From Candidatus Blautia intestinigallinarum (GTDB taxonomy: Bacteria > Bacillota > Clostridia > Lachnospirales > Lachnospiraceae), in assembly GCA_019112635.1 (NCBI GenBank), contig DXIX01000015.1, positions 1 through 64,000 on the forward strand: DNA of 64,000 nucleotides, read 5' to 3'. Within the stretch, counting starts at the first letter, position 1. Each line of letters opens with the position of its first letter. Position numbers and translations under genes: made by a program. The notes under the pieces are model-generated. The model did no database searches and was not told the origin of the DNA. It saw nothing but the letters and a program-made list of their open reading frames with translations. Below, piece by piece: positions 25,089 through 32,739 of this stretch.

Positions 25089-26318
25089 TTATACAAAAAT
25101 CACCATCACACTGACGATCACAATGGAGACCGCATTAGATATCAACATCGTCCCCATTCCCAGCACCGGACCAATCTGGCTCTTCAGATATCCTCTCTCC
25201 GCTTCGCTTTCCCCAATGGAAGCTGCCTGCTCTGTCAGCATCTGATTCACCGGGAATCCCATCATACAGTTCATGGTCAGGGCAATTCCGTGCTCCGCAC
25301 TGAAATGACAGATCCTGGCTCCGATGACACCGCAGAGAATTAAGAGAATTGTGGAGACCACGAACACCAGAATCAGCGGCGGCAAAAAGGCAGCCAGCTC
25401 TTTCCAGGAATACCCGGCCAAGGTATTGGCCATCAATCCCATCAGTCCGAGAATCAAAAGTCCGTAGGAATCGGATTTAAAAAGAGGTGCCTGGTCCATC
25501 AGTCCCACACTGCCCAGAATACATCCGAAAATCAGGGCGGTCAGGTTGGGGTTGATATTCATTCCTGCCAGCACCGTCCCGTGAAGCAGGTTGTTGAGCA
25601 CGGTCACGATCATGATAATCCCAAGATAATAAGCTGTGCTCTTATATTTTCCCGGAATCTTCTCACACAGGCGTTTCTTTGCTCCGGAAGCTTTCTGCAC
25701 ATCTGCCATGCCTTTTTGCGGTCTCTCGCCAAAAGCAGCCTGTCCCGTCTCCTGCGATTTGCTCCTCTCCCGGAAACCGCGCAGCAATGTACGGCTCTCC
25801 CGTCTCAAAGCCCAGGTCACTACGGGAACGCTGAACAGTCCCTGGAACATGAAAATCAGCCAGGGGAACACGGAGATGGCCGGATTCTTGTCCAGAACCC
25901 ACCGGGATGCGATCGCACAGGAAGCGCCTCCGCCGATGACAGATCCCGGAGATACCATGGCAAGTCCCCTTCCCAGAAACGGCATCAGCCCGATTCCCAC
26001 TCCGATTACCAGAACCAGCGAGGAAACCACACAGAGAATGGTCTCCTGTTTTCGCGCGGCCAGCATCTTCAGGTTAATCATCGTACCGGAGTGAATGACC
26101 AGCACATTGAAAGCGATGGTTCCCACAGCAATCATATTCGCGGACAGCAGCATATCCGTCGGCAGAATTTTCAGCGCAAAGCCGGCCGCGAACAGCACTC
26201 CATAGATCAGAGGCATTGGAATCAGAGATCTGACCTTTTCCGCCAGCGCGATGGAGACAAAGGCGATCAGGAGAAATACCAGAAAACTACGGTCAAATGC
26301 CCATGTATACTCTGTCAT
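25089..26318 (-). CDS. DUF3100-type multi-TM membrane protein (putative transporter)
   Basis: 409 aa polytopic; PGSVIGGGASCAIASRWVLDKNPAISVFPWLIFMFQGLFSVPVV; family assigned from memory. Confidence 0.65.
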   Translation of the reverse strand: MTEYTWAFDRSFLVFLLIAFVSIALAEKVRSLIPMPLIYGVLFAAGFALKILPTDMLLSANMIAVGTIAFNVLVIHSGTMINLKMLAARKQETILCVVSSLVLVIGVGIGLMPFLGRGLAMVSPGSVIGGGASCAIASRWVLDKNPAISVFPWLIFMFQGLFSVPVVTWALRRESRTLLRGFRERSKSQETGQAAFGERPQKGMADVQKASGAKKRLCEKIPGKYKSTAYYLGIIMIVTVLNNLLHGTVLAGMNINPNLTALIFGCILGSVGLMDQAPLFKSDSYGLLILGLMGLMANTLAGYSWKELAAFLPPLILVFVVSTILLILCGVIGARICHFSAEHGIALTMNCMMGFPVNQMLTEQAASIGESEAERGYLKSQIGPVLGMGTMLISNAVSIVIVSVMVIFV

Positions 26319-26352
26319 AATAAAACACGTCCTTCCTATTTTTCCTGTTTTA

Positions 26353-26395
26353 AGTATAAAAGAACCGGCCCTTTTTGACTGTCATACATGCGACA
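26353..26395 (-). promoter_or_regulatory. Crp/Fnr-like site + promoter upstream of DUF3100 gene
   Basis: Minus strand TGTCGC-ATGT-ATGACA (26395..26380), 21 nt, TATACT (26358..26353). Confidence 0.6.
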
Positions 26396-26448
26396 TTCCG
26401 TGTGTTTCCCGTCAACCTGGAAAGACTTTGAATTCCCTGCATAAGAGA

Positions 26449-26492
26449 AGCGCTCCCCGGACTGCACCCATATCTGCAGTCCAAAAAGCGCT
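26449..26492. repeat. Nested inverted repeat, probable terminator after hydrolase A
   Basis: AGCGCT-cccc-GGACTGCA-cccatatc-TGCAGTCC-aaaa-AGCGCT. Confidence 0.6.
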
Positions 26493-26527
26493 TTTACTGT
26501 CATCTTTTCTATATGGAAACGAATTCT

Positions 26528-28351
26528 TTATTCGTCTTCCACTTCGATCTCATAGTCATCCTCAAACGGCTGCAGCCAGTTCTCCGGATCGGTGTAAGGA
26601 ACGATCGGAAGGAGCAGGTAAGACGGATGATTGTTGTCTCTGTAAATCTTGTAGGAAGTTGTTGTATTGGTCGGAACCACATTCATGTTTCCTACTTTTC
26701 CTGTCCAGGACTCTTTGTGGCACTCGTTCGGGCACTGGCTTGTGATTTCCAGTTCCAGCCAATGACCTGCCGGAATTACCATAGAGGTCGGGTTCATCTC
26801 GATAACATACTCACGGATCTCACCTGGTGTAACCGGGATGGATACGCTGTTGTCATGTACCGGACGTCCGATCTGGCTCTTCTCTTCGTTAAGCGGATGA
26901 GAAGCTCTCAGTGCGCCGTAACGCAGAAGCGGCATACGAGTTCCATCAGGCAGAACATCGAACAGACTGCATACAAAGTTTGCGTCTTCCGCATCGATGG
27001 ATGCCCACAGATGCAGCTCGATCGGTCCTGTGATCTCTTTTGGCTGCGGGAACCGTGAGGATTTGTACACGATCTTGTTGACTTCCGTAGAAATTGACGG
27101 AGGCAGATGTGTGAATCCATCCGGCGGCAGATCCTTATCCGGCTCTCTGTCCCAACGCAGACGGTTGAAGGAGCGCAGATACATCTTCTTCCACTCGGTT
27201 CTCTTAAGAGGCCATTCGTTCTCGTATCTCATGCCGGCATTGAGCACACCGAATTTGTAAGGAGGCTCGTCCATGATACCGGTGTCGACACCTTTCAGCC
27301 AGTGATCGTACCATCTCAGGCACTCTTCGTTCAGTGCACGGTAAGGCAGTTCCAGTCCATCGTAGCCTTCCAGTACACCCAGACGTTTCGGAACATCCAG
27401 TCTGTCATCGTTCATAGCTGTGAAGATCGGAGCACTCCATCTTCCCAGAGGTGACCATGCGCAGTGCAGATATACCGGAACTTTTACTTTATCATACATC
27501 TGGTTTGCGGAACGCTGTTTCCAGTACTCGTCATCCAACGGATGAAGCAGATAATCCAGATAGAATGTATGATACGTCGGCGGCCATGTCGTCAGGATCT
27601 TCGTAAAATAGGAGTTCACTGCAATGTCGGGATCTTTCAGACGTTCTTTCATCATCTCTTTCGTCTTCTCTTCTCCGTACATCTTCAATGTCCATGGCAT
27701 CGGTTTGTTAGATGGGCACAGTTCCCAATAAATGCTCATGTAAGTAGACGGCACACCGCCGTAGTATCCATGCTGATAATAATCGTCCACGAAAGAACAA
27801 GGCATGATACATTTCAGATGAGGCGGCTGCTGTGCTGCTGCCAGGATCTGGCAGATTCCGAAATAGGAATAGCCAACCATACCAACGTTGCTGTCACACC
27901 ATTCCTGCTCTGCAGCCCACTCGATCAGATCATAAATATCCTTATGCTCCTGTGGATTGTAAACGCCGTAGAATTCGCCTTCACTCTTGCCGATTCCTCT
28001 TGGATCCGGAATGATATAGGCATATCCACGTTTCACGAAATATTCAATATCGCCGGCTTCCAGGCTGTGATCAAACAGCAGAGATTCTGGTGGGATCGCA
28101 CCTCTTTTAATTCCCTGCATTTCTTTACTGTAAGCAGACCAGCTCACCAATGCCGGAACCGGACCTGCATCTTTCGGAAGATAAACATCTACACAGAGAC
28201 GGACACCGTCGCGCAGTGTCATCCAGACATCCTGATGGAGTTCTACCTCATAGCGTGGCCTTGAGAGTTTATCCAGATTTTTGACATAACGCTTATCCCA
28301 GTAATTAGGCAGAACGTCGATGCCAAGGACTTCTGTCAGTCTTTTTTTCAT
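26528..28351 (-). CDS. CocE/NonD (S15 X-Pro dipeptidyl-peptidase-like) alpha/beta-hydrolase, paralog A
   Basis: 607 aa; YIIPDPRGIGKSEGEF, nucleophile VGYSYFGICQ, C-terminal jelly-roll-like GPIELHLWASIDAEDANFVC; no signal peptide. Confidence 0.88.
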   Translation of the reverse strand: MKKRLTEVLGIDVLPNYWDKRYVKNLDKLSRPRYEVELHQDVWMTLRDGVRLCVDVYLPKDAGPVPALVSWSAYSKEMQGIKRGAIPPESLLFDHSLEAGDIEYFVKRGYAYIIPDPRGIGKSEGEFYGVYNPQEHKDIYDLIEWAAEQEWCDSNVGMVGYSYFGICQILAAAQQPPHLKCIMPCSFVDDYYQHGYYGGVPSTYMSIYWELCPSNKPMPWTLKMYGEEKTKEMMKERLKDPDIAVNSYFTKILTTWPPTYHTFYLDYLLHPLDDEYWKQRSANQMYDKVKVPVYLHCAWSPLGRWSAPIFTAMNDDRLDVPKRLGVLEGYDGLELPYRALNEECLRWYDHWLKGVDTGIMDEPPYKFGVLNAGMRYENEWPLKRTEWKKMYLRSFNRLRWDREPDKDLPPDGFTHLPPSISTEVNKIVYKSSRFPQPKEITGPIELHLWASIDAEDANFVCSLFDVLPDGTRMPLLRYGALRASHPLNEEKSQIGRPVHDNSVSIPVTPGEIREYVIEMNPTSMVIPAGHWLELEITSQCPNECHKESWTGKVGNMNVVPTNTTTSYKIYRDNNHPSYLLLPIVPYTDPENWLQPFEDDYEIEVEDE

Positions 28352-28383
28352 TTGATTTTTACCTCCTTTGTTTTTCTGAACTT

Positions 28384-28431
28384 ATCATACACAAAAATGG
28401 TATGTACAATTGTCATGTACACACCATTTTT
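28384..28431 (-). promoter_or_regulatory. Putative promoter and large dyad upstream of hydrolase A
   Basis: Minus-strand TGGTGT-GTAC-ATGACA, 21 nt, TATGAT; embedded in AAAAATGGTrTGTACAattgtcaTGTACAyACCATTTTT. Confidence 0.45.
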
Positions 28432-28477
28432 GCAAATAATTTTTAAATTTTTTCTTTTATTTTTTCAACACTATATT

Positions 28478-29854
28478 TTATTTATTTGCAGAGGCCTTCG
28501 CCTGCTCTTCCATCTCTTCCCATGGCTGATAGGTCTCTTTCATCTTCTCGAAAATATCGTACCCGTCATTTTTCTTCACATAGTTTCTACGGATAATCGT
28601 ATAGCCGATTGCGAATATGTAATAACAAATCATCATGATCCAGTTGTGAGGAGCCATCTCAAACAGTACATAGTATCCGAGCACAACTGAGAGAACGATC
28701 GCTGCCACGGTCAGGATACAGTTCAGAGAATGAGGTGTTCTGATAAAACGTGCGCTGTATGCATGTGGGTACTTCTTCGGCAGCATAAATACGCTGAAGA
28801 AAGCGATAGGCAGCAGCAGAAGTCCCGGGATTGTGGTAACCTTCACCACGTCGTCCAGATTGAAGCCTGCCAGGATCAGAACGATAGCGAGGATGGAGTT
28901 CAGCCACAGAGAAGCTGCAGGAGCACCATGTTTGTTGGTCTCAAAAATTTTCTTCGGAAACAGTCCGTCTCTGGCTGCCGCGAAGTTGATACGGGAGAAC
29001 ATCATCATGGCAGAGTTAATACTCGTCACGATCGCCAGAAGAGCTCCGCCCGCAATAAAGAAGATCCACACTGCCGGACTCATGAATTTTTCCGCTATGG
29101 TTGCCATGTTATCGATGTCCCACCATTCCGGCTGTACACCAACGGTAACATATGCCATCAGGCCATATACAACCGCAACTGCAAGAGTACTTACCAGATA
29201 CGCGATCGGAACAGTCTTTCCAGGATTCTCAATGTCATCTGCTGAGTAGTACAGCGCATTGGCACCGATCAGACTGCCGTGCATGATTCCCATTGCCGCC
29301 CACAGGGAACCCAGCTCGATTGTGGAGGTAACAACCTCTTTAAAGGACACTACTGTCGCGCCCCAGCCGCCGATGATATAAATGCCCAGAGCAATCAGAA
29401 GAATTACCACGCAGACATTCTGCACTGTCGATGAGAATTTGATTCCGAAACAGGAAATAATTGTAAACAGCACGATGCAGGCGCAGGCTGCCAGCCAATC
29501 CGGACACGCCGGAACCAGCATGCAGAAATAAGTGGAAAAGGTCAGTGCCATGGTACCGATCTTCAGCACACCAACTGCCAGCTCGTTGAACGCATCCCAG
29601 GTACCCATAACAGGGTGTACCAGACGGGTGAGGTACATGTAGGAACCACCGCTTGCCGGGAGCGCTGATACCAGAATCATCTCAGGGATACTGCGCAAAA
29701 ATACGAACAGCGCCGCACAGATGAAGCCGATCACAATACCATTGCCGCCGATGATTTTGATTGCGATCGGGGTAGAGGCGAATACACTTGCACCAATGAT
29801 GCTTCCTATCGCCATCAGGATACTCGAAAATAGATTCATTTTCTGTTTTTCCAT
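28478..29854 (-). CDS. APC-family amino acid permease
   Basis: 458 aa polytopic; MNLFSSILMAIGSIIGASVFASTPIAIKIIGGNGIVIGFICAALF...SGGSYMYLTRLVHP. Confidence 0.88.
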   Translation of the reverse strand: MEKQKMNLFSSILMAIGSIIGASVFASTPIAIKIIGGNGIVIGFICAALFVFLRSIPEMILVSALPASGGSYMYLTRLVHPVMGTWDAFNELAVGVLKIGTMALTFSTYFCMLVPACPDWLAACACIVLFTIISCFGIKFSSTVQNVCVVILLIALGIYIIGGWGATVVSFKEVVTSTIELGSLWAAMGIMHGSLIGANALYYSADDIENPGKTVPIAYLVSTLAVAVVYGLMAYVTVGVQPEWWDIDNMATIAEKFMSPAVWIFFIAGGALLAIVTSINSAMMMFSRINFAAARDGLFPKKIFETNKHGAPAASLWLNSILAIVLILAGFNLDDVVKVTTIPGLLLLPIAFFSVFMLPKKYPHAYSARFIRTPHSLNCILTVAAIVLSVVLGYYVLFEMAPHNWIMMICYYIFAIGYTIIRRNYVKKNDGYDIFEKMKETYQPWEEMEEQAKASANK

Positions 29855-29888
29855 ATACTTACCTCTTTTCTCTTAGATTTTTAAGGTA

Positions 29889-29931
29889 AATATAAACATT
29901 TTATAAACTTTTTACTGTCACCTCCGTGACA
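29889..29931 (-). promoter_or_regulatory. Crp/Fnr-like perfect dyad + promoter upstream of APC permease
   Basis: Minus strand TGTCAC-GGAG-GTGACA, 21 nt, TATATT. Confidence 0.65.
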
Positions 29932-30052
29932 CTTTCGGAATTTTCTATATATTTATTTCGTTAACTTATTTTTACAAAAACTTTTTTTATTCAAAAGTAT
30001 GTGTTAGAATAGTTGCAAGTTTCTCAATTTACACGAAAGAAAGGATGGTTCT

Positions 30053-30784
30053 ATGGAAAACAATATCCCCCGTATGGATGAACTTCCAAAGGAAACACAG
30101 GCAATATTCAAAACCTTGAAATCCACGGCTCTGTTCAGCGAGCTCAGTGCGAAACAGCTGATCTCGCTTGCCTCTCACTGCAGGCTGAAACAGGTCAAGA
30201 AAGGGACAACCATCTACCGCAAAGGAGATCTGGCCAATCACCTCTATGTGATTCAGTCCGGATATATTATCGAATCCGTCTACTATGGCAGCAGCGTGGA
30301 TGTCATTGTAAAAGTTCGCAGCGACGGAGAATATTTTGGCGAGATCGGTCTGCTCTCCTCCGGCCCCTATCCCAATACGGTGATCGCCCTGGAGGACTGC
30401 TGCCTGATTGATCTGGCCAAATCTTACTTCATGGAAGCTGTGGACGAGAACACTTCCGTCTGCAAAGTCATCATTCTGGAGTTGATCGACCGCCTTCTGA
30501 ACTCAGCTCAGAACATGGTCAATTCCATGTACCTGGACGCGCCCGGCCGGCTGGCGTCCACGATTGTCAACCTGACCACCAACAGCCGTCAGAAAATTAT
30601 GACAATCCGCATTACCCAAAGCGCTCTCGCCTTTTCCTCAGGAATGGCCCGGCAGACTGCGGCGAAAATTCTGAGTGAATGGCGCAAGGAAAAAATCATA
30701 GCCACCGAGCGCGGTCATCTGAAAGTTCTGGATTTCAATAAGCTTTTGGATATTATTCTGGACAGTGAGATTAACAGCTGCTGA
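30053..30784 (+). CDS. Crp/Fnr-family transcriptional regulator
   Basis: 243 aa; cNMP-binding fold (GTTIYRKGDLANHLYVIQSGYI...GEYFGEIGLLSSGPYPNTVIA) and HTH ITQSALAFSSGMARQTAAKILSEWRKEKII. Confidence 0.9.
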   Translation: MENNIPRMDELPKETQAIFKTLKSTALFSELSAKQLISLASHCRLKQVKKGTTIYRKGDLANHLYVIQSGYIIESVYYGSSVDVIVKVRSDGEYFGEIGLLSSGPYPNTVIALEDCCLIDLAKSYFMEAVDENTSVCKVIILELIDRLLNSAQNMVNSMYLDAPGRLASTIVNLTTNSRQKIMTIRITQSALAFSSGMARQTAAKILSEWRKEKIIATERGHLKVLDFNKLLDIILDSEINSC

Positions 30785-30817
30785 TTTGATAGAAAATTTA
30801 AAATATTTTTGCTCTTG

Positions 30818-30860
30818 TGTCACATTTCAGACAGACAACTCCTCCTGTTTTTTGTATACT
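30818..30860 (+). promoter_or_regulatory. Crp/Fnr-like site + promoter upstream of hydrolase B
   Basis: TGTCAC-ATTT-CAGACA (30818..30833), 21 nt, TATACT (30855..30860). Confidence 0.6.
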
Positions 30861-30894
30861 GGGCTCATCAAGAAACGAGACAGGAGGTACAAAT

Positions 30895-32739
30895 ATGAAT
30901 CAAGAAGAATTCTGTGAACAGACAGGCCTTGAGAAAGTTCCTGTATATTGGGACCGCAGATACACGAAAAACCTGGATAAGCTCTCAAAACCTATCTATA
31001 CTGTCAAGTTGGAAGAAGACGTAGAAGTGGTGTTAAGAGACGGAACCAAAACTTATGTGGATGTATATCACCCGGCAGAGCTGGACAGAGCCCCCTCTTT
31101 GATCGCTTACTCTGCATACGGAAAGAAAATGCAGCGTATGCGTCACGGATCTCTGCCGGGATCTTCCAACTATTTTGACCATAGTCTGGAAGCCGGTGAT
31201 ATTGATTTCTTCGTAGAGAGAGGTTACACCTTCATCATTCCCGACGGGCGTGGTATCGGGCGCAGCGAAGGCGAATACCTTGGCGTTTACAATCCTCAGG
31301 AACAGGAAGACGTCTATGACTACGTAGAATGGGCCGGTACCGAGTGTCAGTGGAGCACAGAGAAAGTTGCTCTCCTTGGCTATTCCTATTTCGGCATTAT
31401 TCAGGCATTGGCTGCTGCTCTTCAGCCGCCTCACCTGGTATGTATCATGCCTTTAAGTTTCACAGACGACTATTATCAGCACGGTTATTATGGCGGTGTG
31501 GGCAACACTTACATGAACATGTACTGGGAGCTTTGCCCATCCAACAATCCGACCACCTGGACAAGCAAGATGATGTCCGAGGACGAGATGAAAGCTCTGA
31601 TCGAAGAAGTTCAGAAAGACCCGGATATCGCAATCAATACGTACTTTAACAAGATGTTCAACGTGTGGCCACCGAAATATCACACTTTCTATCTGGATTA
31701 CCTTCTCCATCCCCAGGAAGACGATTTCTGGCGCCCACGTTCCATGAAATATAAATACGACAAGATTAAAGTTCCTGTATATTTCAAATGCGGATGGTCT
31801 CCAAACGGACGTTGGTCTGCTCCGGTATTCAACGCTATGAATTCCAAGGAGCTCACCGTCTACAAACGCTGCGGCGTTATGGAGAACTACGGCGGAATGG
31901 AACTGCCCTACCGTTTCATGAACGAAGAGATGCTGCGCTGGTATGATTACTGGATGAAAGGCATCGATACCGGTATCGTAGATGAGCCTCCGATGAAACT
32001 GAATATCATCGGCCGCGGTTACCGCTATGAATATGAGTATCCTCTGGCAAGAACCCACTGGAAAAAACTGTATCTTCACACCTTCGGCAATCTGCGCTGG
32101 GAGCCTGTTCCAGAGGGAAATCTGCCGCCTGACAGCTTCACTCACCGTCCTCCACACATCACAACTGAAGTGGAGACACTGGTTTACCGCACAGACCGCC
32201 TGAGCCGTCCGACTGAGTTCACCGGACCGATCGAACTGCATCTGTGGGCATCCATCGACAGCACCGACGCCAACTTTATTGTCAAACTGTGGCAGATCAC
32301 ACCTGGCGGAACCAGACTGCCTATCTCCCGCTACGGCGCTCTGAAAGCAAGCTATCCTCTGGATGAGGAAAAGAGCGAGATTGGACGTCCGGTTCATGAT
32401 TACACCAAGAGAGTTCCGGTAACTCCAGGTGAGATCCGTGAGTATGTCATCGAGATCAACCCAATCGGTATGGTATTCCCGGCAGGATCTGCGATCGAGC
32501 TGGAAATCAAGGCAATGGATAACTACGAACCGCAGAGCGGCGCATGGCAGGCTAAGATGGATCACTTAGGACCGATCCCGAGCGCAACAACTGTCAACTA
32601 CAAGATTTACCGTGACAAGGATTATCCTTCCTATGTCCTGATGCCATATATCCCGGAGACACCGGAAGAACAATGGCTGCAGCCTATCGTTGATGATGAT
32701 ATCGTCATCGGAGGCAGCGGAAAAGGAAGTACTCACTAA
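30895..32739 (+). CDS. CocE/NonD (S15-like) alpha/beta-hydrolase, paralog B
   Basis: MNQEEFCEQTGLEKVPVYWDRRYTKNLDKLSKPIYTVKLEEDVEVVLRDG; LLGYSYFGIIQALAAALQPPHLVCIMP; clear paralog of 26528..28351. Start at 30895 (RBS AGGAGG). Confidence 0.88.
   Translation: MNQEEFCEQTGLEKVPVYWDRRYTKNLDKLSKPIYTVKLEEDVEVVLRDGTKTYVDVYHPAELDRAPSLIAYSAYGKKMQRMRHGSLPGSSNYFDHSLEAGDIDFFVERGYTFIIPDGRGIGRSEGEYLGVYNPQEQEDVYDYVEWAGTECQWSTEKVALLGYSYFGIIQALAAALQPPHLVCIMPLSFTDDYYQHGYYGGVGNTYMNMYWELCPSNNPTTWTSKMMSEDEMKALIEEVQKDPDIAINTYFNKMFNVWPPKYHTFYLDYLLHPQEDDFWRPRSMKYKYDKIKVPVYFKCGWSPNGRWSAPVFNAMNSKELTVYKRCGVMENYGGMELPYRFMNEEMLRWYDYWMKGIDTGIVDEPPMKLNIIGRGYRYEYEYPLARTHWKKLYLHTFGNLRWEPVPEGNLPPDSFTHRPPHITTEVETLVYRTDRLSRPTEFTGPIELHLWASIDSTDANFIVKLWQITPGGTRLPISRYGALKASYPLDEEKSEIGRPVHDYTKRVPVTPGEIREYVIEINPIGMVFPAGSAIELEIKAMDNYEPQSGAWQAKMDHLGPIPSATTVNYKIYRDKDYPSYVLMPYIPETPEEQWLQPIVDDDIVIGGSGKGSTH

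Follow-up and report, generated by a model that had tools for sequence, protein, structure and literature searches.

The 64,000-nucleotide (nt) stretch analysed here (the window, i.e. positions 1 to 64,000 of the forward strand of contig DXIX01000015.1 from Candidatus Blautia intestinigallinarum, assembly GCA_019112635.1, 2.1 Mb in 37 contigs and about 75% complete) carries a Crp/Fnr-family regulator gene among genes for an APC-family permease, two CocE/NonD proteins and a polytopic membrane protein, which raises the question of whether the regulator is the dedicated switch of this cassette. As judged from the DNA itself, the cassette with its own putative Crp/Fnr switch is a real, previously undescribed and local regulon of a known general type. 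Very likely it is a class II regulon, in which the regulator would bind TGTCA-N6-TGACA operators near -41.5 and thereby activate the cassette promoters. We found no paper describing this operator consensus in a search of a library of open-access papers. The genes of the cassette are:

30053..30784, plus strand: Crp/Fnr-family regulator of 243 amino acids, Pfam domains cNMP_binding and HTH_Crp_2, six orthologs at 51-82% identity
28478..29854, minus strand: APC-family (AA_permease_2) permease of 458 amino acids, assigned by profile matches
30895..32739, plus strand: hydrolase B, CocE/NonD family, 614 amino acids, Peptidase_S15 and PepX_C, relatives at 76-96% identity
26528..28351, minus strand: hydrolase A, CocE/NonD family, 607 amino acids, Peptidase_S15 and PepX_C, relatives at 85-97% identity
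25089..26318, minus strand: polytopic membrane protein of 409 amino acids, probable transporter without Pfam or NCBIfam match, called "DUF3100" in an earlier sequence-only reading of the window

Dyads at a fixed distance from -10 boxes

The sequence-only reading had proposed four promoters around the regulator gene sharing a 16-base-pair (bp) dyad, a spacer of exactly 21 nt and a -10 box. The sequence contains each of the four 43-bp strings without any deviation at the coordinates and on the strands it gave, always with the 21-nt spacer, and the window dyads have two to three mismatched pairs across the 16 bp:

29916..29931, minus strand: permease operator TGTCACGGAGGTGACA, conserved in all seven loci compared, with a spacing of 21 nt in six and of 22 nt in locus L023
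29889..29894, minus strand: -10 box TATATT of the permease promoter
30818..30833, plus strand: hydrolase B operator TGTCACATTTCAGACA, 21-nt spacing in 7/7 loci
30855..30860, plus strand: -10 box TATACT of the hydrolase B promoter, with a second GACA 17 nt upstream in 7/7 loci
26380..26395, minus strand: operator TGTCGCATGTATGACA of the membrane-protein gene, also found in L020 and L026
26353..26358, minus strand: -10 box TATACT of the membrane-protein gene
28411..28426, minus strand: weak, asymmetric operator TGGTGTGTACATGACA of hydrolase A, with right half-site, 21 nt and TANNNT in five of six loci
28384..28389, minus strand: -10 box TATGAT of hydrolase A
28393..28431, minus strand: stem-loop AAAAATGGTGTGTACA-TGACAAT-TGTACATACCATTTTT between the permease and hydrolase A genes, from RNA folding

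The comparison set consists of seven loci from different clostridial genomes, the window included. Upstream of the genes other than the regulator gene, GACA-N21-TANNNT occurs in 21 of 25 regions and once more with 22 nt, and no other spacing is common to the genes. The three site-free regions belong to the membrane-protein genes of L022 and L027, which lie directly behind a hydrolase gene, and to the hydrolase A gene of L027, which overlaps the permease gene; where the membrane-protein gene heads its own unit, the dyad with 21 nt is present (3/3 loci). The earlier reading had made its proposal depend on conservation of the sites upstream of orthologous genes, and this conservation is found across the seven loci at the same spacing, the L023 permease site being one base longer.

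Short motifs are common, and a coincidence of short dyads with -10-like boxes has to be considered. We built a matrix of the 16-bp dyad and the -10 hexamer at 21-nt spacing from 13 sites of the relatives only, with the window excluded. The top three matches in the window are the sites at 30818 (plus strand, 30.9 bits), 26395 (minus strand, 28.2 bits) and 29931 (minus strand, 25.4 bits), followed by a next-best match of 12.6 bits, while the maxima in 200 first-order Markov windows were 12.7 +/- 2.0 bits with a highest value of 18.6 bits. The genome-wide tests relied on exact patterns. TGTC-N8-GACA-N21-TANNNT occurs three times in the 2.1-Mb assembly, every time in the cassette; a second genome with the regulator (G136) has two matches, both in its own cassette, and in a third (G148) the cassette holds three matches, and the two outside it are in line with chance. 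In 59 control genomes of the genus, none of which has a regulator match, three scattered matches were found in total using a stricter TATANT box. Chance origin is thus ruled out by the matrix and by the own-genome and genus controls, and for three of the four sites, which exceed all random windows and are conserved across the seven loci, coincidence is practically impossible. The earlier remark that no comparable sites were noticed in other intergenic regions holds for the window by matrix and for the approximately 75% complete assembly by exact pattern. The description of a self-contained system is supported as well: the sites precede units of the cassette and none was found elsewhere in its own genome.

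The cassette is distributed sporadically. A sample of 299 genomes of the family yielded orthologs of the regulator in two other genomes, and four more named records have one, e.g. Candidatus Egerieimonas intestinavium and Clostridium sp. SCN 57-10; none was found in the other genomes of the genus (64 searched) and no further genome emerged from the order or class samples. Permease and hydrolase B adjoin the regulator in all seven loci, and hydrolase A is present in all of them except L021, whose stretch is short; most of the loci also have the membrane-protein gene. In the family sample, hydrolases of at least 58% identity are confined to the three genomes with the regulator, and among the orthologs the hydrolases share 76-97% identity compared to 51-82% for the regulator. 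The cassette may have passed by transfer from one lineage to another, as its sporadic distribution suggests. Searches of viral contigs revealed no relatives of the regulator, plasmid records contained only hydrolase relatives at 31-33% identity, and the flanking deacetylase gene, used to look for an empty insertion site, yielded no clear ortholog. In L020 the permease is encoded in two frames that overlap (L020:5415-6808), owing to either an assembly error or a frameshift.

Recognition helix, operator and effector signatures

As the sequence-only reading had stated, the product of 30053..30784 belongs to the Crp/Fnr family: Pfam detects cNMP_binding (PF00027, E-value 6.1e-19) and HTH_Crp_2 (PF13545, 2.1e-12), and Foldseek retrieves GlxR and CRP at about 1e-13 to 1e-11, the structure model having weak confidence in the DNA-binding part (mean predicted local distance difference test score, pLDDT, 65.6). 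Written in the CRP frame, the operator reads TGTCA-N6-TGACA, compared to TGTGA-N6-TCACA for CRP, i.e. one base pair is changed per half-site. The departure from the classical motif noted earlier is seen in all strong sites, in which C replaces the G of TGTGA.

The seven orthologs have an unchanged recognition helix, GMARQTAA, including Arg-Gln-Thr at the positions of CRP residues 180-182, with Arg at 180 and Gln at 181, where CRP has Glu181. A co-evolution analysis identified residues 180 and 181 as specificity-determining in this family (PMC1274295), and the changed half-site base is in keeping with Gln replacing Glu181. The earlier explanation of the altered specificity had invoked both this Gln and a Lys at the position of Arg185. 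The Gln part persists, as the residue is invariant in the seven orthologs, but the Lys part has to be rejected: L022 carries Ala at this position with unchanged operators, so Lys is not needed for specificity. The regulon would add a clean natural case, Gln at 181 together with C in the half-site, to the Crp/Fnr recognition code.

Two further loci, L018 and L015, contain other Crp/Fnr genes near the dyads TGTAACCATGGTTACA and TGTAGCATGTGCTACA, located 22 nt and 21 nt, respectively, before -10-like boxes, and at position 181 the helix has Pro in the L018 protein and Thr in the L015 protein, in line with the residue-181 code. The L018 paralog with Pro-181 offers a parallel, as TGTAACCATGGTTACA corresponds to the GTAAC-N4-GTTAC motif published for the Pro-181 protein HcpR2 (PMC1274295).

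Since dyads of the TGTC-N8-GACA type also occur with proteins outside the Crp/Fnr family, the sites could belong to another transcription factor. We regard this as very improbable, because no regulator gene other than that of the Crp/Fnr protein was seen to recur in the cassettes, the 5-N6-5 geometry and the predicted -41.5 position are those of the Crp/Fnr family and the residues at the base-contacting positions are invariant.

The effector signatures of well-known family members are missing. Glu97, corresponding to CRP Glu72, is invariant, while the Arg82 position is occupied by Pro, Leu or Gln across the seven orthologs, so that the canonical phosphate-binding cassette for cyclic AMP (cAMP), comprising Glu72 and Arg82, is not present. 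The score of 69.1 bits for the NCBIfam CRP equivalog NF008732 lies far below its cut-off of 266. The cysteines for an FNR-type [4Fe-4S] cluster are not present, only one Cys (C137) being invariant among the seven orthologs. The heme arrangement of CooA, which includes an axial His, is likewise not found: the segment GEIGLLSSGPYPNT matching CRP 72-82 is present and no His is invariant. The likeliest input would be a small, non-canonical effector, perhaps the substrate of the cassette as in CprK.

Mode of action and the hydrolase A site

From these observations we infer regulator binding, activation and use of the -10 boxes as follows. The dimer encoded at 30053-30784 would bind TGTCA-N6-TGACA operators centred near -41.5, a centre deduced from the predicted -10 boxes, at the promoters of the permease, hydrolase B, the membrane protein and, weakly, hydrolase A. 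Loaded with its effector, presumably not cAMP but a small molecule related to the substrate taken up, the regulator would recruit RNA polymerase in class II fashion. The -41.5 centre and the invariant spacing would both fit class II activation.

The sequence-only reading had described the -35 regions as poor. This is true for the permease and the membrane-protein gene, whose promoters have no recognisable -35 element. Their TGACA is not simply a -35 box either, as it is spaced by 21 nt and not by 17 nt from the -10 box. For hydrolase B the description has to be amended: in 7/7 loci its promoters repeat the GACA at a distance of 17 nt from the -10 box (window 30830-30860), which gives the one second peak among the spacings, so that the -35 region is not simply poor, and this second GACA could be a partial -35 element.

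The same features bear on repression, in which the regulator would cover the -35 region and be released by the substrate. Dyad and -35 region overlap in every promoter, and the GACA of hydrolase B at the ideal 17-nt spacing could act as a -35 element. However, the promoters of the permease and the membrane-protein gene would be weak without an activator, and a spacing kept to the base from gene to gene and from species to species typifies class II contact with the polymerase, whereas repressors tolerate variable positions. We therefore consider repression improbable.

At hydrolase A, the site was rightly called weaker: it is asymmetric, its left half does not match, it lies inside the stem-loop at 28393..28431 and it reaches 11.5 bits with the relatives-only matrix, which alone is at noise level. 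Against a dismissal of the site as spurious, the right half-site, 21 nt and TANNNT are found in five of six loci, whereas 2000 simulations of chance gave 0.10 loci on average and never more than 2. The strong stem-loop, which overlaps the weak operator, is kept in L020 and L026, and its presence in three loci means that the hydrolase A operator and an RNA element may overlap; this site is the least certain of the four. It is possible, though rather unlikely, that the "operator" is nothing other than this stem-loop, serving to terminate transcription or to process the mRNA downstream of the permease gene: in the window, L020 and L026 the stem is perfect or nearly so and is flanked on its 3' side by T-rich sequence, and the score of the site taken by itself is noise. 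Against this, that stem sequence is missing from L022 and L023, yet both retain the right half-site at exactly 21 nt from TANNNT.

Several points weigh against class II activation by the local regulator as the overall explanation. The seven loci are few, and some of them come from metagenome-assembled genomes. A dyad at -41.5 could also repress. The hydrolase A site is asymmetric, and its conservation could stem from the stem-loop instead. Moreover, no such site faces the start of the regulator gene itself, in any of the seven loci, so that an autoregulatory loop is not evident.

Cassette products and likeness to known systems

The hydrolysis proposed for the cassette is a family inference only. 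Both CocE/NonD proteins clearly score as family members (TIGR00976, 240.5 and 278.8 bits at a cut-off of 66.3), and the catalytic Ser is kept in GYSYFG in both proteins and their orthologs (12 sequences). The canonical Asp and His are absent, however: in all 12 sequences Pro occupies the Asp position of cocaine esterase and there is no His at the His position, leaving the triad incomplete. Another family member, 3ib3, whose structure is known, also has no Asp in the aligned stretch, so that the loss of Asp may be a subfamily trait. The CocE-type proteins may represent a subfamily whose active site differs, or they may not be hydrolases.

For the membrane protein, the DUF3100 label found no support, as no Pfam family was matched up to E=10 (whether the library contains the DUF3100 model was left unchecked) and neither NCBIfam nor PHROGs gave a match. 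Its structure model is poor (mean pLDDT 54.1), which reduces the best Foldseek match, CitS at E=0.065, to a hint.

Metabolic genes adjoin the hydrolase A or membrane-protein gene in relatives. A Lyase_1/FumaraseC_C aspartase-type protein is encoded directly behind hydrolase A in L020 (L020:1979-3460) and two genes on in L026, where a malic enzyme is nearby (L026:15810-18479), and an aspartate aminotransferase-family protein lies nearby in L022 (L022:1366-2640). That the cassette products feed aspartate/C4 metabolism is a weak lead. Probably, judging by the protein families encoded, the cassette imports an amino-acid-like compound via the APC permease and processes it with the two CocE-type proteins. 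A more far-reaching and doubtful idea is that the regulator senses a new non-nucleotide effector, e.g. a conjugated amino acid that enters through the APC permease, and that the CocE-type proteins, in which the canonical Asp and His are absent, catalyse a different reaction or form an unequal catalytic/regulatory pair, which together would constitute a new catabolic pathway of gut Clostridia under a switch of its own. A compact regulon with a defined operator, targets and regulator in several clostridial species would make effector and substrate directly testable.

Clusters with a similar gene content are found in L051, L052 and L053 (genomes G085, G057 and G035), which share two adjacent CocE/NonD paralogs and an APC permease with the cassette. 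They differ in sequence (31-42% identity), in having a MerR-GyrI regulator (MerR-type) and in extra genes, i.e. one for a kynureninase-family protein and, in L051 and L052, one of the cyclase family (PF04199). In their second CocE/NonD paralog, Gly replaces the nucleophile Ser.

With class II promoters of E. coli CRP, the system shares the fold family, the 5-N6-5 dyad frame, Arg at the 180 equivalent and, as predicted from the -10 boxes, the centre near -41.5; it differs by the TGTCA-N6-TGACA operator, by Gln for Glu181, by the lack of Arg82 in the seven orthologs and by a regulon that is local and not global. CooA shares the TGTC-N8-GACA outer boxes, a local regulon of substrate-use genes and Gln at the 181 equivalent (Gln178). 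The inner operator bases differ and no coo genes were seen in the cassettes. As the motif is close to the CooA operator TGTCGGCNNGCCGACA with its outer TGTC...GACA half-sites (PMC545781), the specificity class is not unprecedented. CooA lacks the segment matching CRP 72-82, making room for heme (PMC12937710), while the window regulator and its orthologs retain it.

HcpR and HcpR2, Crp/Fnr regulators of nitrosative stress in anaerobes, show how the motif changes with residues 180/181, and HcpR of P. gingivalis also has Gln at 181 (PMC1274295). The cassette, in contrast, has no hcp gene and other targets, and the fold match to P. gingivalis HcpR has only about 20% identity. CprK resembles the regulator in logic only, since substrate and redox control differ, and its operator differs from the window operator. 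CprK of Desulfitobacterium is described as a substrate-sensing Crp/Fnr activator of dedicated catabolic genes that works without cAMP (PMC2610375, PMC12937710).

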